Origin: Methanolobus mangrovi | GTDB taxonomy: Archaea > Halobacteriota > Methanosarcinia > Methanosarcinales > Methanosarcinaceae | DNA: 64,000 bases | Reading direction: 5' to 3' | Assembly (NCBI RefSeq): GCF_031312535.1 | Contig: NZ_CP133594.1 | Coordinates: forward strand, 1,054,001 to 1,118,000 | Shown: positions 33,810-56,378 of the stretch, piece after piece | Position numbering within the stretch: the first letter of the stretch is position 1 | How the letters are laid out: each line of letters begins with the position of its first letter | Position numbers and translations under genes: made by a program | Notes under the pieces: model-generated | Database searches by the model: none | The model's input: only the letters and a program-made list of their open reading frames with translations | What the model was told of the DNA's origin: nothing

Positions 33810-35111
33810 TTAGAGATTTTCACATGGATTTTCCATATACCCACCTATCTTTTTTATCGACCAGTTTAGAAGTGGCCTAATAACTCCACGCCTTGGTTCT
33901 GGATTATGTGTGCCTACTCCATTTAATGCTTCGATTTCAAGTTTTAAGATGTTATCTTCTGCAAAATGAACTTTTTTCATAGGAATTGTTGAAGAAATTC
34001 TTACATAATAAAACCCATTGTTCAATAAATTTCCAGGAATGAAACACTGCGTAATATAGATTCCTTCTGATTCTTTATTTGAGGAATCTAAGAAGTCAAT
34101 ATCATTAGAAGTGAAAACACAGGTTCCATCATCTGCAAATAACGTAACTCCAATTTTTGTTGTCGTAGCCTTTTTTAATAAAACATATTTAATTTCAATA
34201 ACAAATGAACTGGATATATCAGTGCATGAAATTATTTTATCAAACTCATTTTTTATAGCTACATGGATTAATTTTATAGTGTCGTCGCCTGGACTATTGT
34301 TTAGACAATCCCAAACTTTAAACCCTTCGCCTTCATTCCCCTCATTTATATATTTTGTAACGATATCATGTGTATCCCCTATTTGTCTAATTAATCCCGA
34401 TTGTAGCCATATTGCTTTGCTGCAAAGGTTATTTACAGCCCCCATGTTGTGACTTACAAATAGCACGGTTCTCCCACCCTCAGCTACCTCTTCCATTTTA
34501 CCCAGACACTTCTTCTGAAACGCTGCATCTCCAACGGCAAGTACTTCATCGACAATGAGTATCTCAGGATCTAGATGAGCTGCCACAGAGAAACCAAGAC
34601 GCACATTCATGCCACTGGAATAGCGCTTAACAGGGGTATCTAGAAATTTCTCAACGCCTGAAAACTTGACAATCTCATCAAACTTTTCATCAATTTCCTT
34701 CTTTTTCATACCAAGAATGGAACCATTAAAATAAATATTTTCTCTGCCCGTAAGTTCAGGATGAAAACCAGTACCTACTTCAAGAAGACTTCCTACACGA
34801 CCTCGCATCTTTATCTCACCTTCTGTAGGGTAGGTAATCCGCGAAAGAACCTTGAGGAGAGTACTCTTGCCAGCACCATTCCTACCAATAATACCAACAA
34901 CGTCTCCCCTTTCAACTTCGAAATTTACATCCTTGAGAGCCCAGAAAGCATTATTTGTTCGGAAACTGTTCTTTAACGTCATTAATGGATGTCTCACTGC
35001 ACAGGTTAAACTGTCTGAAAGCGTCTTGTATGTCTTGTCCATTCCAATAGAATACTGCTTAGAAAGGCCTTTAACCTCTATTATGGGTTCTTTTTTGCTT
35101 GACGCTACCAT
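33810..35111 (-). CDS. ABC transporter ATP-binding protein for polysaccharide export (Wzt-like)
   Basis: This is the cytosolic ATPase of an O-antigen/teichoic-acid-type exporter. It has Walker A GRNGAGKST near residue 75, signature YSSGMNVRLGF, Walker B PEILIVDEVLAVGD, and the switch SHNM. The extra 170 residues at the C-terminus form a Wzt_C-type beta-sandwich like those that recognise the end of the glycan before export. The 433-residue length suits such two-domain proteins. It lies directly after the permease gene with no gap (start codon adjacent to the permease stop), so the pair forms an operon. Confidence 0.93.
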   Translation of the reverse strand: MVASSKKEPIIEVKGLSKQYSIGMDKTYKTLSDSLTCAVRHPLMTLKNSFRTNNAFWALKDVNFEVERGDVVGIIGRNGAGKSTLLKVLSRITYPTEGEIKMRGRVGSLLEVGTGFHPELTGRENIYFNGSILGMKKKEIDEKFDEIVKFSGVEKFLDTPVKRYSSGMNVRLGFSVAAHLDPEILIVDEVLAVGDAAFQKKCLGKMEEVAEGGRTVLFVSHNMGAVNNLCSKAIWLQSGLIRQIGDTHDIVTKYINEGNEGEGFKVWDCLNNSPGDDTIKLIHVAIKNEFDKIISCTDISSSFVIEIKYVLLKKATTTKIGVTLFADDGTCVFTSNDIDFLDSSNKESEGIYITQCFIPGNLLNNGFYYVRISSTIPMKKVHFAEDNILKLEIEALNGVGTHNPEPRRGVIRPLLNWSIKKIGGYMENPCENL

Positions 35112-35948
35112 TTAAATCAAATCCGCAAAGTATTTTTCTGTACGTTTGAGATAGAGTATACCACTCACAAAAATAATGATTGTTAACACAGTTGAAATTG
35201 CAAGTCCAACAAAATCTACAGGAACATGACCAAGCAGGCATGCCCTATGAGCATTTATTAATCCTGTCATAGGGTTCAAGTAAAGTAACCATTGGAATTT
35301 CTCACCTACTACATCAACAGGGTAAATAACTGGTGATAAAAATAAAAGCATCTGGATGAAAAATGAGAGTATGAACTTTACATCCCTATATTTAATGCAA
35401 ATAGATGAAAGCCAGTACCCCATTCCTGATGAAAGTAGAATTGTAATTAATACTATGAAAGGTAACAGGATTATTTTACTATTCGGAACAATTTGGTAGT
35501 ATAGCATCATCAGTGCAATGATACTTGTAGCAATCACATAGTCAACAAGCGATGCAAGAACAGGAGCGGTTGGTATAAATATTCGTGGTATGTAGACCTT
35601 TGAGAGAAGACCACCACTACCAACAAGACTAAGGCTTGAAGCAGATAGTGAAGTTGAAAAATAAGTCCAGAGAATAAGACCGGAATACGAGAATAATGGA
35701 TAAGGAATTCCTTCAGACGGCATCTGCGCTAGCCCACCAAAGATCAGCGTAAAAACAATCATCGAAAAAAGAGGTTGTAGAACTGCCCATGATGCACCCA
35801 TGATAGTCTGTTTATACTTTATCTTAATTTCCCTTAAAGCAAGGAAGAATAAAAGCTCTCTGTACTCTACCAGTTCCTTCCAGTTCAGATCCAAAAACCC
35901 GTATTTTGGGCGGATTACAAGTTCGTAATTAGTTGTAGTTTCAGTCAT
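35112..35948 (-). CDS. ABC-2 type polysaccharide export permease (Wzm-like)
   Basis: This integral membrane protein of about six helices is the partner of the ATPase encoded next. After a short cytosolic N-terminus it shows the family stretch LFFLALREIKIKYKQTIMGASWAVLQPLFSM-like region (near 30-65), and later helices with YLNPMTGLINAHR near 240, conserved in TagG/Wzm permeases. The frame extends to a GTG at 35957, but the ATG at 35948 fits the family N-terminus better (278 residues). The pair would export a lipid-linked glycan across the membrane. Confidence 0.92.
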   Translation of the reverse strand: MTETTTNYELVIRPKYGFLDLNWKELVEYRELLFFLALREIKIKYKQTIMGASWAVLQPLFSMIVFTLIFGGLAQMPSEGIPYPLFSYSGLILWTYFSTSLSASSLSLVGSGGLLSKVYIPRIFIPTAPVLASLVDYVIATSIIALMMLYYQIVPNSKIILLPFIVLITILLSSGMGYWLSSICIKYRDVKFILSFFIQMLLFLSPVIYPVDVVGEKFQWLLYLNPMTGLINAHRACLLGHVPVDFVGLAISTVLTIIIFVSGILYLKRTEKYFADLI

Positions 35949-36079
35949 GGTAAACACATTTATACTTCCCCGTAGACAGTTTAGTATTCACTTATAATAT
36001 TCCACGATAAATATATTCCTATATTATATATAAATATCTAATTATATGTAGGCATAATCACACAGAAATGTATAAAAAG

Positions 36080-37304: not shown

Positions 37305-38708
37305 ATGAAAACTGCGTACCATATAGCAAAAAATACATTTTTTATTGTATTCAGCAATGTTACAACTAAAATAATCGCCATTATAATAACAATTTACTTA
37401 GCACGATACCTAGGAGCTTCTGATTTTGGAAAATATACGTTTGTGATAACATACTTGATGATGTTTGGATTTATAGCAGGATTTGGTCTTGATCCAGTTG
37501 TAATAAAAAATATTGCAAAAAACACAACTACTGCTGAAAAAATGATGAGCAATTCTATATTAATTCGAATTCTCACTTCATCAGCATCAATTTTTCTGGC
37601 TGTTGCAGGAATACATATCTTGAATTATCCACCGGATACAATATACTATGTACAACTATTGTCTGGCATCCTCTTATTCCAAGGAATTAGTTATTTAATT
37701 GAATCTTTTTTTCAATCCCAATTGAAAATGCAATTTTCAGCAATTTCACAAATTTGTTCAAAACTTGTTCTTGGAATACTAATATATTATGCTGTTCAAA
37801 ACAAATGGGGATTAAGTGATATATTTTTAGCATATGTTTTTTCAGAGATGCTTAGAACATTTATATCATTCATTTACTCAAAAAGAATGTTACATTATAA
37901 GCTGCAATTTGAACCAAGATATTGCATGAATCTAATAAAGCAGTCATTACCTTTCGTATTTGGATATGGATTATTAGTTGTATTCAACCGTTTTGATATC
38001 CTAATGTTATCTATAATGAAAGAAGATATAGCTGTTGGTTTTTATTCTGCAGCTTTTAAGCTGACAGAATCAGTTCTATTTATACCTAGTGCATTATCTG
38101 CTACATTAATGCCCATAATGGCAAAACAATTCGATACGAACATTGAAAAATTGAAATGCACATATAAGATAGGAACAAAATATATATTTATGATTATTTT
38201 TCCGTTAATAGTTGGTGGCACCATACTAGGAGAAAAAATAATCATATATATATATACAGAAAACTTCAGCAATTCGATTTTTGTGTTTCAATTATTAACT
38301 TTAACTATCATTTTTAATTCATTAAATTCCATCCAGACTTCAATAATAGTTTCCGTAAATAAACAACAATTAAACAACTTGTCAATATCTATATGTATTA
38401 TTTTAAATATAATGCTAAATTTGATATTTATACCCAAATACAGCTATGTCGGAGCTGGTATTGCAACATTTGTATCTGCAATTGTTCTATATTTGTTTGG
38501 TTTTTATTTTATATATAAGATGCTTGACATACAACCTCTAAACTTTGAAATTATTAAACTGGTATTATCATCAATTTTTATGGCAATTATATTAATTAGT
38601 ACTAATTTAAGTTTGATAGGTGAAATATTAATGGGATTTACTATATATATGATAACTATAGTACTAACAAAGTGTATTAGTATGGATGACTATCGTATTT
38701 TAAAATAA
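37305..38708 (+). CDS. Wzx-like lipid-linked glycan flippase
   Basis: The 467-residue polytopic protein has about 12-14 hydrophobic segments with the polysaccharide-biosynthesis/MATE-like fold. It begins KNTFFIVFSNVTTKIIAIIITIYLARYLGASDFGKY, a typical Wzx N-terminus with ARYLGxxxFG, and shows another family feature in LPFVFGYGLLVVFNRFDILMLS near residue 210. The expected role is flipping lipid-linked oligosaccharides across the membrane. With the Wzm/Wzt pair, the island thus encodes two export routes, which implies at least two glycans or a past replacement. Confidence 0.9.
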   Translation: MKTAYHIAKNTFFIVFSNVTTKIIAIIITIYLARYLGASDFGKYTFVITYLMMFGFIAGFGLDPVVIKNIAKNTTTAEKMMSNSILIRILTSSASIFLAVAGIHILNYPPDTIYYVQLLSGILLFQGISYLIESFFQSQLKMQFSAISQICSKLVLGILIYYAVQNKWGLSDIFLAYVFSEMLRTFISFIYSKRMLHYKLQFEPRYCMNLIKQSLPFVFGYGLLVVFNRFDILMLSIMKEDIAVGFYSAAFKLTESVLFIPSALSATLMPIMAKQFDTNIEKLKCTYKIGTKYIFMIIFPLIVGGTILGEKIIIYIYTENFSNSIFVFQLLTLTIIFNSLNSIQTSIIVSVNKQQLNNLSISICIILNIMLNLIFIPKYSYVGAGIATFVSAIVLYLFGFYFIYKMLDIQPLNFEIIKLVLSSIFMAIILISTNLSLIGEILMGFTIYMITIVLTKCISMDDYRILK

Positions 38709-43674: not shown

Positions 43675-44793
43675 TCAACAAGTTTCATAAAATTCTATGT
43701 ACATATTCACGTAATCGCATATTACACGGTCCCAGCTGTAATTAAGAGCAAACTCCTTTTGTTGTTTAATCACACCCTCATCATAATCTTTCCCATAAAC
43801 TGCAGCAATTATATCACATATATTTTCAATAGTTGGTTCAAACGCATAAAGTTTATTGCTACTCATGAGTGTAAAATCATATATCCCTGCCTTTTTGGAA
43901 AAATAAACTGGACAGTTTGCACAGGCGAAAGCTTCAATATAAGAAAGTGGAAAGTTATCCCATAATGAAGGAAAGATAGCAGCATCTACTGTTTTTAGAT
44001 ATGATTTTATAATGTATTTACCTACATTTCCAAGTAAAATCACGTTATTCTGTAACTTCAAATCATAAATTAATTTTTCAAGATTTTTTTTTAGAGGACC
44101 CGTACCTGCAATATATAAAAAGGCATTACTTATTTTTCTTTTAGACATGAATCTATGAAATCCTTTTATCAAAATATCTACTCCTTTTTCTGCAGATAAT
44201 CTTCCATGATAAAAGAATTCCAATCCATCTTTTTTAAGCATTAACTCATGTTCTGGTGAGTACCAATAATTATCTAAAGCATTAGGAATTACTTTTGCAG
44301 TTTTGACTCCATAGTTTTCAGCAACCAAGTTTTTAAACAAATATGAATGGACAATAAGCTGATCTGCGCTTTTCAATAAAGAAGGTAAAAAAAAATAAGT
44401 TGGAATATAAGAGTAGTTAATTGATTTGTTGCTGTGATAATTCAATTCTACTTCCTTTCTAATATCGCCATGATAATTAAATATTAAAGGATATTTCTTT
44501 AATTTTGAATAAACATGCAACAGGAATTTACTATTGGGATAGATATGAGGACTGACTGGAATATGGACAATACTGTGTGGCACATCCATAATATTTTTTT
44601 CAGAATATATATTGACATCTTCGAACTTCATTTTTATATTAGCCTCGTATTTTGAAGGCGAAAATATTTCAATATCAGTAAAAGGTAATTTATCTCTTTT
44701 TTTGAGAAGATGTTCGAAAATACTTTGACCTACGGACGAAGGAGCGCCTTCACTGAATGGATAATAATAAACTAAGCTTAAATCATCTTTAAT
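43675..44793 (-). CDS. Family 4 glycosyltransferase with apparent ATT start
   Basis: The first ATG (44631) yields 318 residues that lack the start of a GT4 enzyme. The frame is open upstream to a TAA at 44806, and those codons encode the missing N-terminus: LSLVYYYPFSEGAPSSVGQSIFEHLL is the expected donor/acceptor lobe opening. No ATG, GTG or TTG occurs in that stretch. An AAGGGGG ribosome-like site lies seven bases before an ATT at 44793 (an ATA lies two codons earlier). With it the protein is 372 residues, normal for GT4. The C-terminal lobe has FYHGRLSAEKGVDILIKGF and FPSLWDNFPLSYIEAFACANCPV. It is last in the 43675-50696 operon. Either initiation is non-standard or the start codon is mutated. 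Confidence 0.8.
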   Translation of the reverse strand: MKDDLSLVYYYPFSEGAPSSVGQSIFEHLLKKRDKLPFTDIEIFSPSKYEANIKMKFEDVNIYSEKNIMDVPHSIVHIPVSPHIYPNSKFLLHVYSKLKKYPLIFNYHGDIRKEVELNYHSNKSINYSYIPTYFFLPSLLKSADQLIVHSYLFKNLVAENYGVKTAKVIPNALDNYWYSPEHELMLKKDGLEFFYHGRLSAEKGVDILIKGFHRFMSKRKISNAFLYIAGTGPLKKNLEKLIYDLKLQNNVILLGNVGKYIIKSYLKTVDAAIFPSLWDNFPLSYIEAFACANCPVYFSKKAGIYDFTLMSSNKLYAFEPTIENICDIIAAVYGKDYDEGVIKQQKEFALNYSWDRVICDYVNMYIEFYETC

Positions 44794-44915: not shown

Positions 44916-46469
44916 CTATTTATCATGATCAAAGTACCATATAGCCATCCTTGAACTATCGTATACTTTGCCATAATTCTGTTCCACGACCTTTGTCACA
45001 GGTTTAATGTAATATTTATCTTGAACAAAATATTTATACTCACTCAGTTGTTCCATATTTGTAGCTGCCTGTCTTAACCATTCCATGCGACCAGACACAG
45101 TAGTCCCACCTTTAACAACATAAGGTCCTTCAAAATAGAAGTCCTTTTGTAAGAAACTATTCTGGACATATTCTATTTCATCCTCCTTAATAAATCCATA
45201 AGCTAAATTGCCTGCACTAATAGTTGGTGTAATTGGATGACCTTCTGAAACAGCAAACAATCGTCCTGTTTCAAATGCAGTATCCAGACCATAAGAATTA
45301 TCAGGAATATAACTTTTACCCCATATGCCAGTTACATAAGTATCTTGAGTCATATACCAATATGCATCAGATTCTCCTGTACGATTATGGTTATAAAAGC
45401 CTGTAAAAGTCACACTCAATAATATCATCATGATAAAAATAACTGATGAAAACCTTTTGTTAATCGAAATCTCAGTAACATTAAAAAAAGATATACTAAT
45501 AAATAATACAATCAAAAGTAACAACAAATAAGCCCCATAAGCATGTAAGTAAATAGCCGGAATAAACAATGTAAAAAGAATAAGTAAAAGAAGTTCATTT
45601 ATTGACTTGTCTTTTTTGAATAGACCATAAATGAAACCTCCAATTGAAAGAACGAACAGGGGACCCGATTGCCTTACCAAGGATATTAAAGAAGTGATTA
45701 GCCAGCTATATCTGGATCCAGACTCCACAAGTGATCGATTAATAAAAGGCAAGATAATAGATATAACTATTATGGGTAAAATAATTAGGTACAAATTCAA
45801 CTGTATTGTATCAAAGTATTTTGTCCTTCTTAATAAAAGAAGGCACGTATAAACAACCATGATTGGGATAATAATAAAGGCAAGATGATGTATGGAAAAT
45901 TGGAAAACAAGCAATAAGAACAAGAGAATTATTTTTTTAAACAAATGTATTTCAGATATGAGCAAATAAATAAACAATGGTAAAAGAACTATAAACAGAC
46001 CTCTGGTACTTACTTCCCATGTAGAGAAAAGCATTACCCCAGGAGATGTTGAAAAAAATAAAGCAGCAAGATATTTAAATGTAAACTTTGAAGAAAATCT
46101 ACCTGCTAAAACATAAGCTGTAAATATAGAAAAAACGCCAGTAACTACACAATAGATTAAAATAATTACTTCCATCTCGATTGATAACAATTGATGCATC
46201 CCAGACAGGACAAAAGGTACTGCACTTGCATATGAATATGCGTAAAAACCAAAAACTGAAAGCCAGTTAATCCACCATTGTGCATCTCCAAAGATTGAAA
46301 TTGAATTTGCGAGAGAGTGTATAAAGAATGAATCGTAACCTTTCTCATGAGGAATGCTTGGAATGCGTAGTGCTAAATTGAGTAAAATCAATAATGATAG
46401 CAAACATACTTTGGCTTTCTTCCCAATTAAAAGAGAAGTTTTTATGGATGAACTTGTTTTTTGTTCCAT
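44916..46469 (-). CDS. Polytopic membrane protein, possible GT-C-type transferase or polymerase
   Basis: The 517-residue protein has about ten to twelve hydrophobic segments over its first 350 residues and an exposed C-terminal part of about 160 residues rich in aromatics (YWYMTQDTYVTGIWG, FYFEGPYVVKGGTT). The first external loop has RIPSIPHEKGYDSFF, where an acidic residue after the first helix is what GT-C glycosyltransferases use. That similarity is only a suggestion; I do not recognise a named family. In this operon a lipid-linked glycan polymerase or transferase is a reasonable guess. The GT2 gene before it ends two bases upstream of its start, so the two are translated together. Confidence 0.6.
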   Translation of the reverse strand: MEQKTSSSIKTSLLIGKKAKVCLLSLLILLNLALRIPSIPHEKGYDSFFIHSLANSISIFGDAQWWINWLSVFGFYAYSYASAVPFVLSGMHQLLSIEMEVIILIYCVVTGVFSIFTAYVLAGRFSSKFTFKYLAALFFSTSPGVMLFSTWEVSTRGLFIVLLPLFIYLLISEIHLFKKIILLFLLLVFQFSIHHLAFIIIPIMVVYTCLLLLRRTKYFDTIQLNLYLIILPIIVISIILPFINRSLVESGSRYSWLITSLISLVRQSGPLFVLSIGGFIYGLFKKDKSINELLLLILFTLFIPAIYLHAYGAYLLLLLIVLFISISFFNVTEISINKRFSSVIFIMMILLSVTFTGFYNHNRTGESDAYWYMTQDTYVTGIWGKSYIPDNSYGLDTAFETGRLFAVSEGHPITPTISAGNLAYGFIKEDEIEYVQNSFLQKDFYFEGPYVVKGGTTVSGRMEWLRQAATNMEQLSEYKYFVQDKYYIKPVTKVVEQNYGKVYDSSRMAIWYFDHDK

Positions 46470-46471
46470 AA

Positions 46472-47335
46472 TTAATCAAAGAATTCTTTATATTTATTCC
46501 TGTAGTAACATCGAACTTCAGGCATATCAATCTTTTCTCTAACCACTAGCACTCCATAGATATAACCGTATAAATAAGCAACTCCGATATAAAAGAAAGG
46601 ATACTTGATACAATATTTCAATGATTTTAATAGTACATAGATTGGATAGTAATCTCTGTAATAATCAGAAATACCTCTCACTTTATAGCCTTTCCATAAT
46701 CCTTCAGTGCTATTAGTAGGACGTGACGTTATTGCTATAATATCATTGTATTTTTTAATTTTCCAACCAGAAAGTATCGCCATGACATTTGACACAGAAT
46801 CTGCAGAATAACTTAATGGAAATCCACCGGATTCTTCGAAGCATTCTTTCCTCCAGACCCTCAACCCACCAATCGGATTTTGTGACCGGCCGTTTTCATG
46901 GACTAATTTATCCCCTAAATAGTATGCTGCTGAACCACTACATACACCCAGATCAGGATCAGTTTCAAACTGACCAAGTATCTTTTCAAAAAAATCCTTA
47001 TCCAGAACCATATCAGCATCTATCAAAGCAATGAATTCATGAGAAATAGCATTCTTGTCACAAAAATCAATTGAATACTTTATAGCACTATCAACTATTT
47101 GTGCATAGTGAAAACTCAAATCTCTTTTTGACTCTTTTTCACTAATTACGTAGACCCATTCAACTTTATTCTTCAAATTCTCTAAAATTAATGGCGTTGA
47201 ATCAGTACTACCATCATCTACTATGACCCAAAGGTTGGGTTTTATTGTATTATTAATAACTGAATCAATCAAGCTAGGTAACGATTCCTCTTCGTTTTTG
47301 CAAGGAGTCACTACAATATAATCATATTTTCCCAT
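46472..47335 (-). CDS. Family 2 glycosyltransferase (dolichyl-phosphate sugar synthase-like)
   Basis: The 287-residue enzyme begins DYIVVTPCKNEEESLPSLIDSV, with VDDGSTDSTP near 38 and a metal-binding ALIDADMVLD near residue 108, all GT-A features. NPIGGLRVWRKECFEESGGFP and DSVSNVMAI supply the acceptor part. One or two hydrophobic segments near 240-270 suggest peripheral or single-pass membrane attachment. It lies two bases before the membrane protein gene and after DUF354 in the minus-strand operon. Donor and acceptor unknown. Confidence 0.9.
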   Translation of the reverse strand: MGKYDYIVVTPCKNEEESLPSLIDSVINNTIKPNLWVIVDDGSTDSTPLILENLKNKVEWVYVISEKESKRDLSFHYAQIVDSAIKYSIDFCDKNAISHEFIALIDADMVLDKDFFEKILGQFETDPDLGVCSGSAAYYLGDKLVHENGRSQNPIGGLRVWRKECFEESGGFPLSYSADSVSNVMAILSGWKIKKYNDIIAITSRPTNSTEGLWKGYKVRGISDYYRDYYPIYVLLKSLKYCIKYPFFYIGVAYLYGYIYGVLVVREKIDMPEVRCYYRNKYKEFFD

Positions 47336-47361: not shown

Positions 47362-48396
47362 TTATTTACCAATTTCAAGTGTTTTTTCTATTGCCCCAAC
47401 AATGAATTCCACAATATCAACAGTATTGTTGTATAAATGTTGACTCTTCTCTTGCCATTTTAAATTTAAATCAGAATCCTCAAAAAGAGATTCCGCCTTC
47501 TGGATTGCAACATTCTTATCCTCAATTGTGTATACCAGATCATATTTACTTTCAAGTTCATTCAGATAGCCACGTTTGGTATTAGAGACATATATCGAAG
47601 GGACACCTAATATAGCAGACTCAGAAGCCATTGTCGCACCTTCACCAATATACATTTTTGCAAAGTACAATATATCATGTAAATCTTTGGGATTTATATT
47701 CAACCGATGCTTTTCGATGAGCTGCCAGTCATCAATCTCAGAAAATATAATAACTCGTCCATATCTTTCCAATACAGTTATCAAGTTTTGCAAATCATCT
47801 TCGGACTCAAAATTGAACCCACGTGCTCCAACATCATGATGAGAACCAAGAGCAGACAATCTTAATACAATATAATCATCCGTTAATTCATACTTGTCAA
47901 GAACGGACTCGTTTGGTGTAAAATACTTTGGGTGCAAGTATGCCATTTCATAGTATCCTTCAAAACGCTCTTGTTTTGGCCCCAAATCAATGAAAAAACT
48001 TGTTGATGTGTATATCTTATCCGTAAATGGAAATGTTAATTTCATTACAATTCCAGCGATCTCAGTATCAGGAAACGCAATATGTGGTTTTCCAAGCAAT
48101 CGGCTCACATGAGCAGAGTATGGTGAACCAGGACTCACAAATATATCTGGTTTGAAATCTTTTGAAAACTTGTATAATCGATAATCATTAATTGGTATTC
48201 CTAACGCTTTACCCAGAATGTGCGAATAATAATTGCATAAATGGTACTCAATGCCCAAATCATCAAGCATTCTCCTTGTATTCTCTTTAGCTCTCGCAAA
48301 CACTTGTACTTCATGTCCCTTATCGTTCAGCTCAGAGATGACACCTTTAAAAACATTGACATCCTTCGGATGACCAATATCAAACAACACCTTCAT
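47362..48396 (-). CDS. DUF354 family GT-B-like protein
   Basis: This 344-residue protein belongs to the DUF354 family, common in archaeal glycan loci and folded like UDP-GlcNAc 2-epimerase/GT-B enzymes. Visible features are FDIGHPKDVNVFKGVISEL at the start, PDIFVSPGSPYSAHVSRLLGKPHIAFPDTE near 88-117, and MYIGEGATMASESAILGVPSIYVSN near 245-270, similar to the nucleotide-sugar site of GT-B enzymes. The reaction has not been established as far as I know. Its start overlaps the acyltransferase stop by four bases, showing co-translation. Confidence 0.85.
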   Translation of the reverse strand: MKVLFDIGHPKDVNVFKGVISELNDKGHEVQVFARAKENTRRMLDDLGIEYHLCNYYSHILGKALGIPINDYRLYKFSKDFKPDIFVSPGSPYSAHVSRLLGKPHIAFPDTEIAGIVMKLTFPFTDKIYTSTSFFIDLGPKQERFEGYYEMAYLHPKYFTPNESVLDKYELTDDYIVLRLSALGSHHDVGARGFNFESEDDLQNLITVLERYGRVIIFSEIDDWQLIEKHRLNINPKDLHDILYFAKMYIGEGATMASESAILGVPSIYVSNTKRGYLNELESKYDLVYTIEDKNVAIQKAESLFEDSDLNLKWQEKSQHLYNNTVDIVEFIVGAIEKTLEIGK

Positions 48397-48836
48397 TTAT
48401 CAACATCTCCAATCTTTTTGGCAGGGACACCGGCAACTATTGAATAATCATCTACATTTTTGGTCACTACAGAGCCTGCACCGACCACAGCCCCTTCTCC
48501 AACAATTATATCCGGCATTATGATAGCTCCTGCACCAATCCATGCATCATCTTTGATGATGACTATTCCCCTCTGTATTTTTACATGAGGATAGATTTTG
48601 GAATTGTTAGGATCGGATGATGAAAGTAAGATCACATTTGGCCCTATTGCCACCCTATTACCAATGACTATGTTACCCTTATCTTCAAGTTTTTCTGCAA
48701 TTGTCAAACCTTCTGCAATATAGGTCTGATCCCCTATTTGATATCCACAATTTCGATACAAGAATAATCTCAGAGATGAGCAAGGGAGAGTTTTTGCAAG
48801 AAACTTAAATAGCTTTTTTCTGGATCTCCACAGCAT
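48393..48836 (-). CDS. Hexapeptide-repeat acyltransferase (WcaF/maltose O-acetyltransferase-like)
   Basis: This small left-handed beta-helix acyltransferase of 147 residues has repeated [IV]G-x4 turns, for example VIGNRVAIGPNVILLSS and DAWIGAGAIIMPDIIVGEGAVVGAGSVVTKNV, and ends VAGVPAKKIGDV, the usual tail. It would O- or N-acetylate a sugar. GTG 48842 is in frame, but ATG 48836 is preceded by GTGATC, the same pattern seen before other starts here, so I prefer the ATG. It overlaps DUF354 by four bases and adjoins the FemAB-like gene. Confidence 0.88.
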   Translation of the reverse strand: MLWRSRKKLFKFLAKTLPCSSLRLFLYRNCGYQIGDQTYIAEGLTIAEKLEDKGNIVIGNRVAIGPNVILLSSSDPNNSKIYPHVKIQRGIVIIKDDAWIGAGAIIMPDIIVGEGAVVGAGSVVTKNVDDYSIVAGVPAKKIGDVDK

Positions 48837-48842
48837 GATCAC

Positions 48843-49847
48843 TCACAACATTACCTTTTTATACACAGAAAGACCGATTCCTGCAATATTCTTCCTAATC
48901 CCGGAATGCACTTTCTCATACCTTCCAAAATTTACCATTTCCCCACCAAACCTTCTCTTAAACTCCCTCACACCATATGGTTTGTCGGGATGGCCGGCTC
49001 CTCCAAAATCGAATACTTTGTATTTACCAGCATTCTCTTTAAGAATGTGCCATACAAGAGCTTCATCTACATAATCAACACCTTGTTTCGAACCTGCGTA
49101 CCAGTCGTAGACCATGTCTTTGTAGTTCAGTGTTATTCTTGTGCCTACAGCCTCATCATCCTTTAAGGCAATGAAGAAGTCTGCAAGACCTATTGATGAT
49201 AGGTCATCGTAGGCAGCCTTAAAATGAGAAATATCTGCAATGGGAACCTTGAATCGTTTGTATGTTTCAAGCACCAGGTCATAGCATGACTGCAGCTCGT
49301 CTCTGCTGTCCACCTTTTTGATAGTTATGCCACTTTTCTCTGCACGATTTATACCCTTTCTGCGAGATTTCTGGATATCCTGCCATATATCCCCCTTGCT
49401 TCGGTTAAGATCGATGAGAAAATCAAGATGTGGCTCATAATCATATTCCATTGAACCAAATATCTGCAGGCAATTTTCCGTATCCCACATGTTCCTTATC
49501 TGAGTGTACACTATCCTTCTCCCTACAAGTTTATCGTAGTGTTCCATCATGCTCTGGACAGCTTCTCTTCCCTTATCTGAATCTACAAACAGAGGTCCAC
49601 CATGTAGGACAGCACGCGATGAAAATGAGGAAAGAATACCTTTCATTTCACAAATGATAACGCTTTGCATAACAGCCAGCAGATTATTTGAAACAGGGTC
49701 CTTTGCAGCAAGACAAATAGACTCATAGTTTTTGGTCTTGCCATACAAATCAGCCATCATGGAAGTCTGGAAAATGTTACCCTGCGGATGGTTGGATACA
49801 AAATCATCCCATTCATGTTTGTCAAGGGTTTCAGTTATTGTTACCAT
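48843..49847 (-). CDS. FemAB/GNAT-type aminoacyl- or acyl-transferase
   Basis: The 334-residue protein shows the double-GNAT arrangement of FemAB proteins: WDDFVSNHPQGNIFQTSMMADLYG at the start, KSRRKGINRAEKSGI near 160, and a second half with TRITLNYKDMVYDWYAGS and FDFGGAGHPDKPYGVREFKRRFGGE. Family members transfer amino acids from aminoacyl-tRNA in peptidoglycan bridges, but archaea have no such wall, so the substrate must differ. In bacteria relatives are regular members of exosortase-linked exopolysaccharide loci, and here an archaeosortase gene lies about 1 kb away. Cytosolic. Confidence 0.88.
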   Translation of the reverse strand: MVTITETLDKHEWDDFVSNHPQGNIFQTSMMADLYGKTKNYESICLAAKDPVSNNLLAVMQSVIICEMKGILSSFSSRAVLHGGPLFVDSDKGREAVQSMMEHYDKLVGRRIVYTQIRNMWDTENCLQIFGSMEYDYEPHLDFLIDLNRSKGDIWQDIQKSRRKGINRAEKSGITIKKVDSRDELQSCYDLVLETYKRFKVPIADISHFKAAYDDLSSIGLADFFIALKDDEAVGTRITLNYKDMVYDWYAGSKQGVDYVDEALVWHILKENAGKYKVFDFGGAGHPDKPYGVREFKRRFGGEMVNFGRYEKVHSGIRKNIAGIGLSVYKKVML

Positions 49848-49865
49848 TATTCAATCACTCTGACT

Positions 49866-50696
49866 TCAAGCCTTTATTTTCCGGTACTGTATAATACCAG
49901 CCTTGCCCACATTTTTCACATTCTGCATGACCAGTTCTTTTGTCCAGCCCAGCATTCTATCACACCATCTGTTGGGATGCGCAAGTATACATATCTGGTC
50001 CACTTCTTCTTTACTGATAAGGCTTATAACATCATTTGTACTTTTTATCGTTTTGCCATATCTAACACTTAATCCATTATCCGGAGATTCAAGAACATCC
50101 TTCACGCGTATGTTCCGGTCAGCCCATGTTCTGCCGGTATCAGTGAGATAGAGGACTTTTGAGTAATCTATAGAGAAATATGGCTCCCCTATGATTCCAA
50201 AATCTCTGAAGTCGTGATCTTTCCACATGTCCCTATTGGACCATGATGCAAGAGGATTTCCATGCATACATGCAGTGGTTACATCAGCATATTGACGCAA
50301 GTCCTCAAGTTCCTCTTTGAATATTTCAAGAGCTAAACGGACGTCTCCTTTGGCCTTGTCCATGACCTCGTAATGGAAACCAACTTCATGCCCCAGCTCA
50401 GCCACTTCCCGAATCGCAGCAGGAATGAAAACATCCCTGACATGCCTGAAGTAATACGTTGATCTGATACCAAACTCCGCCTCAAGCCGGGCCATTGCAA
50501 GATTTCGCTCCACAGCACGATCCACATCATGACGCATGATTATACATTTGCCCATAGGGGATGTAAGATAGTCGTGAATAGGTGTTGTGTCATAGTTAGT
50601 TAAAAGAATGGCTTCAATCAATTCCCTGTATTTGGATAATGTAAAATCTCTCAAATCAGTACCTCGGTTGGCGATTGACAAATCGTAGCCAATCAT
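49866..50696 (-). CDS. NodB-like polysaccharide deacetylase-family protein
   Basis: The 276-residue protein has the deacetylase core: IIMRHDVDRAVERN near residue 52 supplies the metal-binding aspartates, STYYFRHVRD follows, and HEVGFHYEV near 105 supplies the histidine motif. CILAHPNRWC near 245 resembles the C-terminal histidine site. This variant is common in glycan loci, where it may act on an intracellular or surface glycan. There is no signal peptide. It is the first gene of the seven-gene minus-strand operon and divergent from the archaeosortase gene. Confidence 0.85.
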   Translation of the reverse strand: MIGYDLSIANRGTDLRDFTLSKYRELIEAILLTNYDTTPIHDYLTSPMGKCIIMRHDVDRAVERNLAMARLEAEFGIRSTYYFRHVRDVFIPAAIREVAELGHEVGFHYEVMDKAKGDVRLALEIFKEELEDLRQYADVTTACMHGNPLASWSNRDMWKDHDFRDFGIIGEPYFSIDYSKVLYLTDTGRTWADRNIRVKDVLESPDNGLSVRYGKTIKSTNDVISLISKEEVDQICILAHPNRWCDRMLGWTKELVMQNVKNVGKAGIIQYRKIKA

Positions 50697-50872
50697 TATA
50701 CTTAATGACCATCAAAAACTCCCATTTATGGCATCATAGCCAATTAATGTTATAATCGAAATATAATTAAACTATGCTATATAAAGTTAGCACCCGGATG
50801 CAAAAATGATAATGATGATAGGCCTGGTCAACTATATATAACAGTTTAATGATTCGAATTATAGGTAAAAAA

Positions 50873-51700
50873 ATGCTGGATCAAAATAAAAACATAATAA
50901 TTATCCTTATAGTACTTGCACTTTTCACCGGAGCGACCATCGAGCTCAGTGAGGGTTCCACAACCATGGGCATAGTGCTCTTCATTGTAGCTGCATTGCT
51001 AATGTCAAGAATGACTCTCACAAGTAATGAAGGATTGAAAAGCTCGAGGAACTATTTGATAATAGGCGGCTTCATTGCAGCTGCAGACCTCATATATAAT
51101 TATGTCAACAAAAGTGATATCGGAACCCTTGACTCAATGGTCTTTTTCCTTGGTGTTTCACTCATGGCAATGGGAACTAACAAAAAGGACATTAAACAGA
51201 TGGGAGAATTGGGTTTCTACATATCCTCTGTGTTCACAGTACTATATCTGATTTTCTACTCATTATTTGGATTCTTTAACATTGACTTCCTGCATCTTTT
51301 TGACCATTACTTCGTCCTTATGCCCACAGTTGCCCTGATAAAATCCTTCGGCATCCCGGTGGAGATTATAGCCATCGAGACAGTTATCCTCTATGGAGCA
51401 GTACCCATGACCATAGTCATAGGAGGACCATGCTCTGGCCTTTACTCCATGTTCTTGCTCATAGGCATAGTGGCAGGATATTCAAGGATCGAACGAATGA
51501 ATATCAATCAATCTTCAAGACTTCTGGGACTGGCAGTATTGATCGCATACCTTGCAAATCTTGTCAGAGTAGTGATACTGTACATCACAGCATACCTTTA
51601 TGGCATGGATATTATGATGATGGTCCACACACACATAGGTTGGATTATCTTCGCCCTGACCGCAGGCGGCATAATGTACATTATGAACAGGAAGAAATGA
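50873..51700 (+). CDS. artC: Archaeosortase C (PEF-CTERM processing)
   Basis: Archaeosortases are polytopic membrane transpeptidase-like enzymes that cut and re-anchor proteins carrying a C-terminal sorting signal. This one has about eight membrane segments and the catalytic triad of the family: cysteine in IGGPCSGLYSMF (residue 187), arginine in YLANLVRVVILY (232) and histidine in MMVHTHIGW (252 or 254). The frame opens at 50849, but ATG 50873 follows a GGT-containing site and matches the family start. Archaeosortase C pairs with PEF-CTERM, and a PEF-CTERM protein is encoded at 55821. It is divergent from a NodB/FemAB glycan operon. Confidence 0.92.
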   Translation: MLDQNKNIIIILIVLALFTGATIELSEGSTTMGIVLFIVAALLMSRMTLTSNEGLKSSRNYLIIGGFIAAADLIYNYVNKSDIGTLDSMVFFLGVSLMAMGTNKKDIKQMGELGFYISSVFTVLYLIFYSLFGFFNIDFLHLFDHYFVLMPTVALIKSFGIPVEIIAIETVILYGAVPMTIVIGGPCSGLYSMFLLIGIVAGYSRIERMNINQSSRLLGLAVLIAYLANLVRVVILYITAYLYGMDIMMMVHTHIGWIIFALTAGGIMYIMNRKK

Positions 51701-51720: not shown

Positions 51721-51957
51721 CTAGCGTTCTATCAACCTTTTTTTGAATATTTTTGTGGCTACAAGAATAGTAACTATCAGGCCACCCATATACACAAAAG
51801 TGATACCGAATACAAGAAGGAACTTGAAATCCTTCAGTATGAATGTAATGGCCACAATGATGCCAAAAAGAACCACAGAGTAGGAAACAAAGCTGAATAT
51901 CAGTGCTTTTTGCCAGTCCATAAGACTTGTGTAAAGATAATTTATCTCAGAGAACAT
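51721..51957 (-). CDS. Small two- to three-pass membrane protein
   Basis: The 78-residue protein has hydrophobic segments near 17-40 and 45-68 and a basic C-terminal tail (KIFKKRLIER). I recognise no family. It begins nine bases after the M48-like gene on the same strand, so they form a transcription unit whose products are both in the membrane. That unit is convergent with the archaeosortase gene. A function in the membrane complex of its operon partner is possible but unsupported. Confidence 0.75.
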   Translation of the reverse strand: MFSEINYLYTSLMDWQKALIFSFVSYSVVLFGIIVAITFILKDFKFLLVFGITFVYMGGLIVTILVATKIFKKRLIER

Positions 51958-51966
51958 GATAGTACC

Positions 51967-52812
51967 TCAATTCAGTTCTACTCCCTCAACAGCCTTTAAA
52001 CGCTGCGAAATATCCGGTTTTGCTTCAAACAGGGATAGATGGACATCATAAAGTGAATTCACCTTAACTGGATTCATTGCAAAAAGGTGAACATGGCCGG
52101 GATTGAAATATTCAACAGAATTCAGATTAATGTCATTATGGACCCTCTTCAGGGCTGAAGTAAGATACTGTTTGCTCCCCAATGCCTTAGCAGCCATTAT
52201 ATCTGAATATAAGGTTGAATCCACCGATCCAAGATATACGACCAGCGAAGCTGGGAACATTACAAGACCCATTGCGACAAACCGTATGAACTTTGGTGCA
52301 GGATCGTCCTCCTGTCCGAAACCTCCAAGCAGAGACATCCACATGGCGATCGTGGAGAAAGAAGCAATGATACCCGCAACAAAGGCCACAAAAGTGTTAT
52401 GGGACACATTTCCCTCGGAGATGCGAGCCACCTCACGTGCGAGCATGGCTTCCAATTCATTATTACTTAAAAGCTCCAGAAGCCCATAGGACATTACAAT
52501 GTTATATTTTTTATTAGAGCCTACTGTAAAGATGATTGGGGTCGATGAATCAAAGATATTAAGCTTAGGGCATTTAACGGAAAAGTTCTCTGAAAGGTAC
52601 TTCAACATTTGGTGTGCATCTACGTATTCCCCTGGAGACATATATTCACACCTGTACAACCTCATCATTATTTTGGAAGCTGAAAGGTAGATCTGCCTGC
52701 TTAACAGATACAGAATAAGCAAGCTTACCAATCCAGCAGTGACACCTCCAAAATAGAATATCAGAGATACTATGGGCAGGGAGATTATGATAAACAGAAA
52801 ATATATCCACAC
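51967..52812 (-). CDS. M48-like membrane protein lacking the HExxH zinc motif
   Basis: The layout is that of HtpX/Ste24-type M48 peptidases: two N-terminal membrane helices (residues 3-20 and 24-42), a middle domain with NIFDSSTPIIFTVGSNKKYNIVMSYGLLELLSNNELEAML, and further helices near 140-190. But where the zinc-binding HExxH should stand, the sequence is R126-E-V-A-R130, so both metal-binding histidines are gone while the frame and the rest are intact. It is therefore most likely a non-catalytic relative (pseudoprotease). It adjoins the small membrane protein gene and lies 270 bases from the end of the archaeosortase gene. Confidence 0.82.
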   Translation of the reverse strand: MWIYFLFIIISLPIVSLIFYFGGVTAGLVSLLILYLLSRQIYLSASKIMMRLYRCEYMSPGEYVDAHQMLKYLSENFSVKCPKLNIFDSSTPIIFTVGSNKKYNIVMSYGLLELLSNNELEAMLAREVARISEGNVSHNTFVAFVAGIIASFSTIAMWMSLLGGFGQEDDPAPKFIRFVAMGLVMFPASLVVYLGSVDSTLYSDIMAAKALGSKQYLTSALKRVHNDINLNSVEYFNPGHVHLFAMNPVKVNSLYDVHLSLFEAKPDISQRLKAVEGVELN

Positions 52813-52977: not shown

Positions 52978-55692
52978 ATGTTCGGCTCTAATAAATGCGC
53001 GTATACCCAGGATCTTAAACTATTATTGGTTGCGTCGTTACTATCGGTTGTATTCATACTCATTCCACCGTTTAACGAGATAGCACTGGTAAGGATACTC
53101 TTTGCCCTATTGATCATATTTTTCATACCCGGATATGCATTTATATCAGCCTTGTTCCCGAGTAACAAGGAAATTTCAGGAATAGAACGATTTACCCTGA
53201 GTGTTGGTTTCAGTATTGTGATTATGGTCTTTGATGGATTTATTGTCAGCCTCACAGAATGGAAATTCAGACCAAATTCAATAACGTTATCGCTTGTCAT
53301 TCTTACGGCAATCTTCATCATACTTATATATATTTCCAGAAAACGCCTTCCTGAAAATGAACAATTCAGCTTTTCATACAGTGCTTTTATCCAGTCACTG
53401 AATTCTGACGATGAGGTCCATACAGAAGTTGAAGAAACAAAATATCAAAGCACAGAAATGGATAAGAGATTCTCTGCAAGTAATCGAAAAAAGATATCTT
53501 CGGTACGTAAAAAAAACCGCACAACCCCAACAGAACCCAATACAAACAGAATCCCCCCCGAGATCACAAAAGCACTCATGATAGCAATGGTGCTTTCCAT
53601 AATTATTGCAGGTGCTATGTTTGCCTATGCAAAAGCAACCAGGGAAAAAGAAAGTTTTACTGCACTATATATACTAGGACCTGATGGAAAGGCTGAGAAT
53701 TATCCAGAGAATTTCTCCACATCAAATCCTATCCACATAATTGCAGGCATAGAAAACTACGAACATGCTGATGTCAACTACATACTACAGGCAAAACTGG
53801 ATGGTAGTGTGCTGGACGAAATCGAAGTAACACTTGGACATGAAGATAAGTGGGAACAGGAACTTGTACTGACACCTACAAAATTCAAGCAGGGAAGGCA
53901 GAAACTCGAGTTTGCTCTTTACAAAGAAGAAATTGGATATTTCGCATACAGGTCAGTACATCTATGGGTAACTCAGGAAATAAGTACGGAAACTATTGAT
54001 ACAACAGATTCCAAAATAATAAACTTTATAGAAATGGAAAACCCTTCAATGGAATCTGATGGCGGTTGGACATTCATATCTAGTAATGAAACATCAGTAA
54101 TAGGTAATTACCTGAATGAATCAGGCATCTACACATCCAGGGCATTTATTATCAACAATACTTTTGAAGGGTATTGGGGACAAGGAGGTTATGAGCAGTA
54201 CTATCTACAGCAGGAGATATACAGTAACATAACAGAAGATGTGTTGCTTTCAGTTTATCTAAAGGATAACTACACAGGAGGAACTTCTGGTGAGGATGAA
54301 TACCAGTTCAAGAGAGTTACACTCAATAATCTAATAGTATGGTCAGATGGCATAAATGGCGATGAAGGGTGGCAACATGTAGTAGTACCTGTTACCATAC
54401 TAGAAGGGAAGAACACGCTAACATTTGCCCTAGCACAGAATCGTAACATGAATCTTAAAGCTGTCGAGTTTTCCATAGATGAAGTGAGTTTCATGCCGAT
54501 TTCATCTATATCCCCATACATGAAGGAAGATAACACTGTTGAATTTGATCTTCCAGTATCAAAAGTACTCCAGCTCCCACAAAGTGTGAACGAAAACAAG
54601 TTTGTAGTCAGTTGGAACGGAACCGATAAAGGTTCTGGCATTTATTATTATAATATAGATTACAGCACAGATGGCATTAACTGGAAGAGATGGTTAAGCA
54701 AAACTACATCAATCTCAGCAGAATTCGAAGGAGAAATGGGTAAGACGTACTACTTCAAATCAAGAGCTGTTGATAATGTCCTTAATGAAGAAATGGAGCA
54801 CCCTCTTGCTGATGCCAGTATAAAATTAGATAGTACAACACCACAAATAGAACTTGACATCACGCCAAACCCCACTAGTAGTACCACATATCTTACAGTA
54901 GAATCAAACAAACCTCTGATGGAAGTTAAATGCTTAATAACACCACACACTTTTGGCGAAGCAGAATATATAAAACTTTCAACTAGCGACAACATAAAGT
55001 GGACTGCTAAATACACCGTGAAATTAGAAGATGATTATGACGTAGAAATCTCTGCAAAAGACAACGCCAACAACACAGCTTACACATTTGGCACTATATA
55101 CACAGACATATCTGCGGAAGAACTATCAATAAATATCGATCCTGAAAAAACATCTGATGATGTAGAGATTAGCATTATCCCATCTATTGCCTTAAAGGAA
55201 GAACCACACGTAACAGTAACAGATGTATACGGACACTATTTAGATGTGAACCTTAAAAGTTCATCTGGCAATAAATACGTATATACAGTCGTGATGGATG
55301 ATATTATGAAGGATGGGGTAGCACGTGTGACTGTAACTGCAAAGACAGTGAATTCCCATAGCTTATATGAAACAGATACATTCATTATTGATAGGGTAGA
55401 ACCTACCATTAAGAGTTTCAACCCTAGTGATGGAGAGAACGTGAATACAAACAGCCCAGCAATCATAGCTTTGTTTTTTGATGATCGTTCAGGGATTGAT
55501 AAAAGTAAGATCGTCCTTCGGATTAATGGAATAGATGTAACGAAAGATAGCGAAATTACCGAGATAGATTATGTATCTATAACTTATCCTACAAGTGGAC
55601 TTGTCAATGGTGAAGTAGAAGTGTACCTGAGTGTTACAGATGAGGCAGGAAACACCAAGATAAAAGAATGGAGTTTTCACGTAATCTCATAA
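52978..55692 (+). CDS. DUF1616-family membrane protein with long extracellular Ig/Fn3-like region
   Basis: The 904-residue protein starts with four membrane helices and the DUF1616 signature PPFNEIALVRILFALLIIFF and FIPGYAFISALFP. A lysine/arginine-rich cytosolic loop and a further helix near 205-220 come next. The DUF1616 extracellular part follows (FTALYILGPDGKAENYP, VGIENYEHADVNY-type). From about 345 on comes a unique extension: a carbohydrate-binding-like beta domain, an Fn3-like module (SWNGTDKGSGIYYYNIDYS) and several Ig-like modules with aspartate/glycine turns. It lacks a PEF-CTERM tail. DUF1616 proteins are common in archaeal envelope loci; a surface scaffold role is plausible. Confidence 0.82.
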   Translation: MFGSNKCAYTQDLKLLLVASLLSVVFILIPPFNEIALVRILFALLIIFFIPGYAFISALFPSNKEISGIERFTLSVGFSIVIMVFDGFIVSLTEWKFRPNSITLSLVILTAIFIILIYISRKRLPENEQFSFSYSAFIQSLNSDDEVHTEVEETKYQSTEMDKRFSASNRKKISSVRKKNRTTPTEPNTNRIPPEITKALMIAMVLSIIIAGAMFAYAKATREKESFTALYILGPDGKAENYPENFSTSNPIHIIAGIENYEHADVNYILQAKLDGSVLDEIEVTLGHEDKWEQELVLTPTKFKQGRQKLEFALYKEEIGYFAYRSVHLWVTQEISTETIDTTDSKIINFIEMENPSMESDGGWTFISSNETSVIGNYLNESGIYTSRAFIINNTFEGYWGQGGYEQYYLQQEIYSNITEDVLLSVYLKDNYTGGTSGEDEYQFKRVTLNNLIVWSDGINGDEGWQHVVVPVTILEGKNTLTFALAQNRNMNLKAVEFSIDEVSFMPISSISPYMKEDNTVEFDLPVSKVLQLPQSVNENKFVVSWNGTDKGSGIYYYNIDYSTDGINWKRWLSKTTSISAEFEGEMGKTYYFKSRAVDNVLNEEMEHPLADASIKLDSTTPQIELDITPNPTSSTTYLTVESNKPLMEVKCLITPHTFGEAEYIKLSTSDNIKWTAKYTVKLEDDYDVEISAKDNANNTAYTFGTIYTDISAEELSINIDPEKTSDDVEISIIPSIALKEEPHVTVTDVYGHYLDVNLKSSSGNKYVYTVVMDDIMKDGVARVTVTAKTVNSHSLYETDTFIIDRVEPTIKSFNPSDGENVNTNSPAIIALFFDDRSGIDKSKIVLRINGIDVTKDSEITEIDYVSITYPTSGLVNGEVEVYLSVTDEAGNTKIKEWSFHVIS

Positions 55693-55820: not shown

Positions 55821-56378
55821 ATGAAGAAATTAATAATACTAGCTATAGCCATGATTGCAATGATTGCAATGATTGGGACTGCAAGTGCATATCAAGCAGT
55901 TTTCTATGACGAAACTGGAAATGTTGTAAATCTTGAAAATCCATTGCAATTGAAACCAGGTGCATCAATAACCCTAAGTTATTATGCAAGCGGGATATCA
56001 GATAATGACGTAAATGATGATTTCTATTACAAGATAATTAAAAGTAATGTGTCGTTAGAATCACCAGTACCTGCTTCCGACAACGATATCGAGGTAATAT
56101 TGAATAACGTAAAGTTCAACCCTGCTGGGGCAAATGCATACATGGACATTGGCGCTGTAACAATAAAAGTAAAGGATACAGCACCCGAAAAAGCATTGTA
56201 TACTGTAGAAGTAGGTGCAGGAAATCCAGATGGTACCAACATCCCCTCGAGTGCAATAACAGAATTCCAAACTGTTTCAAAATCAGTTCAGCTTATCCCA
56301 GAATTCCCAACAATTGCACTCCCAGTAGCTGCAATACTCGGCCTTGCATTCTTCATGCAGCGCCGTAAGGAAGAGTAA
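55821..56378 (+). CDS. Secreted PEF-CTERM surface protein, archaeosortase C substrate
   Basis: The 185-residue product has a signal peptide (KKLIILAIAMIAMIAMIGTASA, cleavage after about residue 23), one beta-rich domain of roughly 130 residues, and a C-terminal sorting signal: the motif PEFPT near residue 160, a hydrophobic stretch and a closing QRRKEE. That is the PEF-CTERM tripartite signal recognised by archaeosortase C, whose gene lies 4.1 kb upstream. A strong AAGGTGG precedes the ATG. The mature domain has no recognisable family. The T-rich AATCTTTTTTTATTCTTTG after the stop probably ends transcription. Confidence 0.88.
   Translation: MKKLIILAIAMIAMIAMIGTASAYQAVFYDETGNVVNLENPLQLKPGASITLSYYASGISDNDVNDDFYYKIIKSNVSLESPVPASDNDIEVILNNVKFNPAGANAYMDIGAVTIKVKDTAPEKALYTVEVGAGNPDGTNIPSSAITEFQTVSKSVQLIPEFPTIALPVAAILGLAFFMQRRKEE

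Follow-up and report, generated by a model that had tools for sequence, protein, structure and literature searches.

Archaeosortases were reportedly defined by Haft in 2012, in a paper whose title is said to tie exosortases and archaeosortases to surface modification. For bacteria, the link between exosortases and surface modification had already been argued, together with an association of exosortase with a deacetylase (PMC1569441), and a FemAB-like gene was described as part of the same association later (PMC7468200). In Porphyromonas, the sortase PorU joins the C-termini of its cargo proteins to an amino-acid-modified 2,3-diamino sugar, which is made by Wbp enzymes together with VimE, a CE4 deacetylase, and VimA, a protein related to TIGR03019 (PMC7468200). 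The same linking-sugar idea was suggested there for bacterial exosortase loci; archaea were not discussed (PMC7468200). In Haloferax, anchoring by ArtA depends on PssA and PssD, whose genes were picked out as neighbours of artA in Methanosarcina, and the amine of archaetidylethanolamine was proposed as the nucleophile (PMC7157517).

ArtC, PEF-CTERM proteins and the bacterial version of the linking-sugar idea are already known; the archaeal module described here and the prediction of an acceptor for ArtC appear to be new. A literature search, outside of which the defining 2012 paper lay, returned no earlier report of the coupling of archaeal artC to NodB-like, FemAB and glycan genes, of artC inside an operon in Archaeoglobi, or of the M48 and DUF1616 partners. 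As the molecule to which ArtC attaches its substrates, the module points to a specific candidate that can be tested, an aminoacylated amino sugar.

The archaeosortase C locus and its predicted proteins

The window, i.e. the whole 64-kb stretch of DNA that was analysed, is part of a single 2.62-Mb contig, a Methanolobus chromosome. A sequence-only reading had described an archaeosortase C gene divergent from a seven-gene glycan operon headed by NodB-like and FemAB genes, and both profile matches and gene order confirmed this arrangement. Of the span that it had drawn, 49866-51700, artC and the NodB-like gene lie inside and the FemAB gene (48843-49847) just outside. The genes of the locus are:

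50849..51700, plus strand: ArtC, archaeosortase C, a membrane cysteine transpeptidase/protease of the exosortase superfamily (TIGR03762, PF09721)
49866..50696, minus strand: NodB-like putative sugar de-N-acetylase, divergent CE4; first gene of the glycan run
48843..49847, minus strand: FemAB-family putative aminoacyl/acyl transferase (PF02388, 56 bits; PF13480; TIGR03019, 48 bits)
48393..48842, minus strand: hexapeptide sugar O/N-acetyltransferase (PF00132; NeuD-like at 67 bits, below the cut-off)
47362..48396, minus strand: DUF354 GT-B-like protein (PF04007, 56.6 bits; synteny)
46472..47335, minus strand: GT2 glycosyltransferase (PF00535, 63 bits)
44916..46469, minus strand: 517-aa membrane protein with a predicted GT-C fold, oligosaccharyltransferase-like (predicted structure)
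43675..44631, minus strand: GT4 glycosyltransferase (PF00534, 80 bits)
51721..51957, minus strand: 78-aa membrane protein, cluster c8, conserved beside ArtC in 30 genomes
51967..52812, minus strand: HtpX/M48-like membrane protein in which HExxH is lost (RExxR); HtpX models up to 95 bits, below the cut-off
52978..55692, plus strand: DUF1616 membrane domain with an Ig-like extracellular region (PF07760, 197 bits)
55821..56378, plus strand: PEF-CTERM protein, predicted ArtC substrate (TIGR03024, 38 bits; cut-off 23)

The NodB-like, FemAB, acetyltransferase, DUF354, GT2, GT-C and GT4 genes form a minus-strand run from 50696 to 43675, divergent from artC; DUF354 was found in nearly all related cassettes. 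The gene for the PEF-CTERM protein lies 4 kb downstream of artC, and the protein ends in the tail IPEFPTIALPVAAILGLAFFMQRRKEE. A further large polysaccharide locus (21187-42660) borders the artC region, with an MraY-like transferase at 21187-22167, left of the glycan run, a Wzm/Wzt-type ABC exporter at 33810-35957, a Wzx-type flippase at 37305-38708 and several GT2 and GT4 genes.

The window ArtC matches TIGR03762 at 332.4 bits (cut-off 100; E 2.8e-99) and PF09721 at 61.5 bits; against the exosortase A model TIGR03109 it scores 23.7 bits, below the cut-off of 208. All 70 aligned relatives share residues Cys195, Arg240 and His260 without exception. Four PEF-CTERM proteins above the cut-off are encoded in the source genome, one of them inside the window (55821-56378), and their cleavage is the putative function of ArtC, as predicted from the sequence. 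Enzyme and substrate of the window thus both match the curated models of the archaeosortase C/PEF-CTERM system (TIGR03762, TIGR03024) above the cut-off. The source genome has a second, short archaeosortase-family gene (G000:C1:453150-453593, locus L101), adjoined by genes for repeat-rich large secreted proteins and with neither NodB nor FemAB nearby. PEF-CTERM proteins also occur in genomes in which artC was not detected: six in G138, a complete Methanolobus-group genome in which no exosortase-family gene of any kind was found, and others in G083, G097, G168 and G173. Either another enzyme processes the PEF-CTERM proteins of such genomes or artC was recently lost from them.

The NodB-like protein of the window matched no Pfam or NCBIfam family, and its nearest named relatives are from Methanolobus species. 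Among 27 relatives, the Pfam family matched most often was PF01522 (Polysacc_deac_1), weakly and below threshold (8 of 27, best E 0.011). An AlphaFold model built on 27 relatives (pLDDT 87, pTM 0.86) was compared with the PDB. The top-ranking matches include CE4 structures alongside unrelated TIM-barrel-type folds, and the TM-scores are low (0.33-0.44 by query); sequence searches of the PDB with the NodB and GT-C profiles gave no usable match. The motifs HDVD, GHExGxH and LAHP (LAH-P) are invariant or nearly so among the relatives. H108 is invariant, and the second His of CE4 motif 2 is not evident. On its motifs and modelled fold, the protein is probably a divergent and active CE4 de-N-acetylase. 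Translation probably begins at the TTG at 50654 and not at the ATG at 50696, because RDFTL is where homologs begin and the model has low confidence over residues 1-13; the ATG start would add 14 non-conserved residues.

For the window FemAB protein, the best NCBIfam model is TIGR03019 (FemAB family XrtA/PEP-CTERM system-associated protein), at 48 bits against a cut-off of 260. TIGR03019 is the best NCBIfam model for the archaeal FemAB proteins each time, at 48-61 bits. In genome G082 a canonical CE4 deacetylase takes the place of NodB, and family f5 has comparable genes close to artC; the best family of the canonical CE4 deacetylases of artC loci is TIGR03006 (XrtA system), at 68-77 bits against a cut-off of 276.

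The locus resembles the bacterial XrtA/PEP-CTERM system in that a membrane Cys-Arg-His sortase-like enzyme, CTERM substrates, a deacetylase, FemAB and glycosyltransferases are found together. Unlike that system, it has an archaeal host, a FemAB protein below the TIGR03019 cut-off, no PEP-CTERM and a NodB-like protein that does not match TIGR03006 even at E 10, for which orthology with the bacterial family was rejected. PrsK, PrsR and PrsT were not recognised either, in a survey that was not aimed at them. The bacterial-archaeal parallel drawn from the sequence is therefore one of broad kinds of families rather than of demonstrated orthologs.

Coupling of artC to deacetylase and FemAB genes

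A set of 186 genomes of the order was searched for artC, NodB-like, FemAB and all archaeosortase-family genes, and their neighbourhoods were compared. ArtC was found above the cut-off in 62 of the 186 genomes (69 genes). Of these 69 genes, 32 have NodB of the artC type within 2 kb, compared with 1 of 82 other archaeosortase-family genes, and 27 have FemAB within 2 kb. That any archaeosortase shows the coupling was rejected, since only one of the 82 others has NodB or FemAB within 2 kb, and that gene (in G063) is a divergent artC-like one.

Two NodB subfamilies were distinguished, the artC-type NodB-I (at least 260 bits) and the paralogous NodB-II. Of the genomes that have NodB-I, 42 also carry artC and 2 do not (Fisher odds ratio 128, p 6.6e-24), whereas NodB-II shows no association with artC at the genome level (odds ratio 1.2, p 0.59). 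Because synteny can be shared by descent, the analysis was stratified by genus. With genus partly filled in from genome numbering and the counts hence approximate, the within-genus Mantel-Haenszel odds ratios are 56 for NodB-I (p 5e-15) and 39 for FemAB-I (p 1e-9), and NodB-II again shows no association with artC (1.2, p 0.88). ArtC and NodB-I occur in exactly the same genomes of Methanosarcina (8 of about 30) and of Methanococcoides (4 of 11). Of 16 well-assembled genomes, 12 have NodB at most 2 kb from artC, against 0.04 expected by chance from the genome-wide positions of matches. When 92 NodB-like proteins were placed on a tree, closeness to artC as a character required 11 changes, compared with a mean of 30 after shuffling.

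The sequence-only reading had called for a survey of Methanosarcinales, in which NodB-like and FemAB-like genes should be enriched near artC. Such enrichment was found; it is strong in Methanosarcinaceae, where 29 of 39 artC genes have both a deacetylase and FemAB within 10 kb, and is seen again, in a different arrangement, in Archaeoglobi. In the co-occurrence statistics that it had also proposed, the coupling survives stratification by genus, and the controls with the paralog and with other archaeosortases are negative. The opposite picture, no enrichment of both families near artC in other genomes, is not what was seen. In the other families of the order, a deacetylase and FemAB are near 4 of 30 artC genes, many of these on short MAG contigs.

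The view that artC is confined to the order holds within the class and is wrong at the level of the phylum, where about 25 further genomes carry it. In the Archaeoglobi (family f10, including Geoglobus ahangari), artC lies inside a co-directional glycan run composed of PIG-L deacetylase, ArtC, PEF-type protein, DUF354, FemAB, acetyltransferase and a second FemAB. All 11 of these Archaeoglobi loci have a deacetylase near artC, and 7 of the 11 have FemAB there. The two FemAB proteins of genome G312 have TIGR03019 as best family, at 50 and 61 bits, and in Geoglobus ahangari a NodB-like gene is directly downstream of artC. The PEF-type protein is encoded next or close to artC (L185 13271-14317; L206 10518-11438), and TIGR03024 misses both examples; ArtC and the adjoining PEF-type protein look like a dedicated sortase-substrate pair. 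The arrangement seen in Methanosarcinales recurs in genome G349, where a canonical CE4 gene broken by IS200/IS605-like genes lies between NodB and artC (L183 7931-10133). In family f11 and others, many of them represented by short MAG contigs, a deacetylase and FemAB are near 1 of 14 artC genes. NodB-FemAB-DUF354 cassettes without artC were found in G041, G044, G046 and one Thermoplasmata MAG. The pairing of NodB with FemAB is not specific to artC in general; this candidate was rejected on the artC-less cassettes and on FemAB adjoining 13 of 61 NodB-II genes. The link of artC to deacetylase and FemAB genes is strong and recurrent, and weak or absent in several MAG-dominated families; it is not universal, because of this weakness in other families and because of the cassettes without artC.

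These data bear on whether artC and the glycan operon are simply surface genes of one variable region, which would travel together without a joint function. The M42 peptidase and amino-acid genes flanking artC are also conserved within Methanolobus, the 21-43 kb part of the window is a further polysaccharide locus, and NodB-FemAB cassettes exist elsewhere without artC, all of which would fit such an inherited neighbourhood. Yet artC and NodB-I are gained and lost together within genera, neither the paralogous NodB subfamily nor the 82 other archaeosortase-family genes show the association, and the Archaeoglobi have a separate arrangement, in which the operon encloses artC and has another type of deacetylase. 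Shared inheritance alone is therefore considered improbable.

Constant core and variable glycan tail

Comparison of the loci revealed a constant core and a variable glycan tail. In the core, ArtC is flanked by FemAB and NodB to one side and by the small membrane protein, M48, DUF1616 and PEF-CTERM proteins to the other. In one form, the tail consists of DUF354, acetyltransferase, GT2, GT-C and GT4; in another, of DegT aminotransferase, WbqC, PIG-L deacetylase, formyltransferase, Wzx flippase and ATP-grasp. Among relatives, distances of the M48 and DUF1616 proteins correlate most closely with those of ArtC (0.91 each), followed by NodB (0.56), FemAB (0.34) and DUF354 and the acetyltransferase (0.16-0.17). 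Because its evolution follows that of ArtC (r 0.91), the HtpX/M48-like protein may be a pseudoprotease partner of ArtC. Its zinc motif reads RExxR in many Methanolobus and HNxxQ in family f5, and is kept as HExxH in Methanosarcina. In G107, artC and the PEF-CTERM gene lie on one contig and the NodB-FemAB-glycan, M48 and DUF1616 genes together on another; the locus can thus split in two without either part being lost.

The 517-aa protein of the tail matched no sequence family. Its AlphaFold model (pLDDT 80) matches AglB, STT3 and PglB, the top match being A. fulgidus AglB (3waj; E 1.8e-7, TM 0.58), and because of these matches the protein is, as modelled, a GT-C glycosyltransferase of the oligosaccharyltransferase type. 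Such a fold would suit a scheme in which the cassette glycosylates PEF-CTERM or other surface proteins along their length via the GT-C protein and ArtC only processes or lipid-anchors them, the two reactions being separate and sharing their targets. N-glycosylated ArtA substrates are known in haloarchaea, in support of this scheme, and so is the swapping of the glycan tail between species as ArtC, M48 and DUF1616 stay. It leaves unexplained that the constant genes nearest artC are the deacetylase and FemAB, and that the type of deacetylase varies with the slot being kept. We regard glycosylation along the length as somewhat unlikely to account for the locus.

A proposed sugar acceptor for ArtC

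The explanation that we put forward, tentatively and at a little under an even chance, is that this archaeal locus serves to anchor proteins to a glycan, and that the amine of a modified sugar would accept the PEF-CTERM protein from ArtC. Transfer through deacetylase, FemAB and ArtC is proposed because of the PssA/PssD and Wbp/Vim precedents and because the same two functions, deacetylase and FemAB, stand beside artC. We infer each chemical step, the order of the steps and the glycan amine as acceptor. The enzymes of the cassette would assemble a lipid-linked surface glycan, the NodB-like deacetylase would strip the N-acetyl group from one amino sugar, and FemAB would attach an amino acid, or another acyl group, to the amine exposed in this way. 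After export, PEF-CTERM proteins would be cut by ArtC at the PEF motif via Cys195, and the acyl-enzyme would be resolved by the amine of the modified sugar, so that the C-terminus of the protein is joined to the glycan. The proposal starts from the genes themselves, their conserved and specific coupling to artC, the catalytic residues of ArtC and candidate ones in the NodB-like protein; the CE4-like fold of the latter and the oligosaccharyltransferase-like GT-C fold are taken from predicted models. By analogy, this suggests that methanogens and relatives of Archaeoglobus may tie surface proteins to a modified sugar with chemistry as in the bacterial anchoring system.

Like the Wbp/Vim system, the module combines a putative CE4 deacetylase with a putative TIGR03019-related transferase, which would here make an amine acceptor for ArtC, and in some lineages 2,3-diamino sugar genes lie near artC. 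It differs in that PorU is an unrelated outer-membrane sortase whose linkage was established by mass spectrometry, whereas we infer that of ArtC. With the ArtA/PssA/PssD system of Haloferax and Methanosarcina it shares an amine acceptor predicted from neighbouring genes; there the acceptor is a phospholipid amine, whereas for ArtC a sugar amine is proposed.

Several findings were counted against anchoring to a sugar. The steadiest partners of ArtC are M48 and DUF1616 (r 0.91), above NodB (0.56) and FemAB (0.34). The association is patchy, cassettes occur without artC and PEF-CTERM proteins in genomes without artC, matches to TIGR03019 and TIGR03006 fall below the cut-offs, and the TM-scores of the NodB model are low. 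Following the ArtA precedent (PMC7157517), ArtC could instead use archaetidylethanolamine, with the NodB-FemAB cassette making an unrelated aminoacylated polysaccharide that retains PEF-CTERM proteins by charge, much as an association with exopolysaccharide is assumed for bacterial PEP-CTERM proteins (PMC1569441). However, pssA and pssD were not recognised in artC neighbourhoods, as surveyed without a dedicated search, and this route appears very improbable.

If the sugar-amine model is true, one acceptor chemistry would unite type IX anchoring in bacteria with exosortases and with an archaeal sortase. That a deacetylase-FemAB linking-sugar chemistry is common to PorU, exosortases and archaeosortase C, which are unrelated or distantly related, across both prokaryotic domains is a conceivable extension, of which we are rather doubtful. 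The artC module is found in genera with culturable members (Methanolobus, Methanosarcina, Methanococcoides and Geoglobus).

In genome G025, genes beside artC encode a UDP-GlcNAc 3-dehydrogenase (451 bits, above the cut-off), an aminotransferase, a NeuD-type acetyltransferase and an NDP-sugar dehydrogenase, the set needed for a diamino-uronic sugar. This is suggestive only, because such genes also serve ordinary archaeal N-glycans. Diamino-sugar (Wbp-type) genes are absent from the window's own operon and partly present in G026, G038, G039, G044, G046, G065 and the Archaeoglobi.
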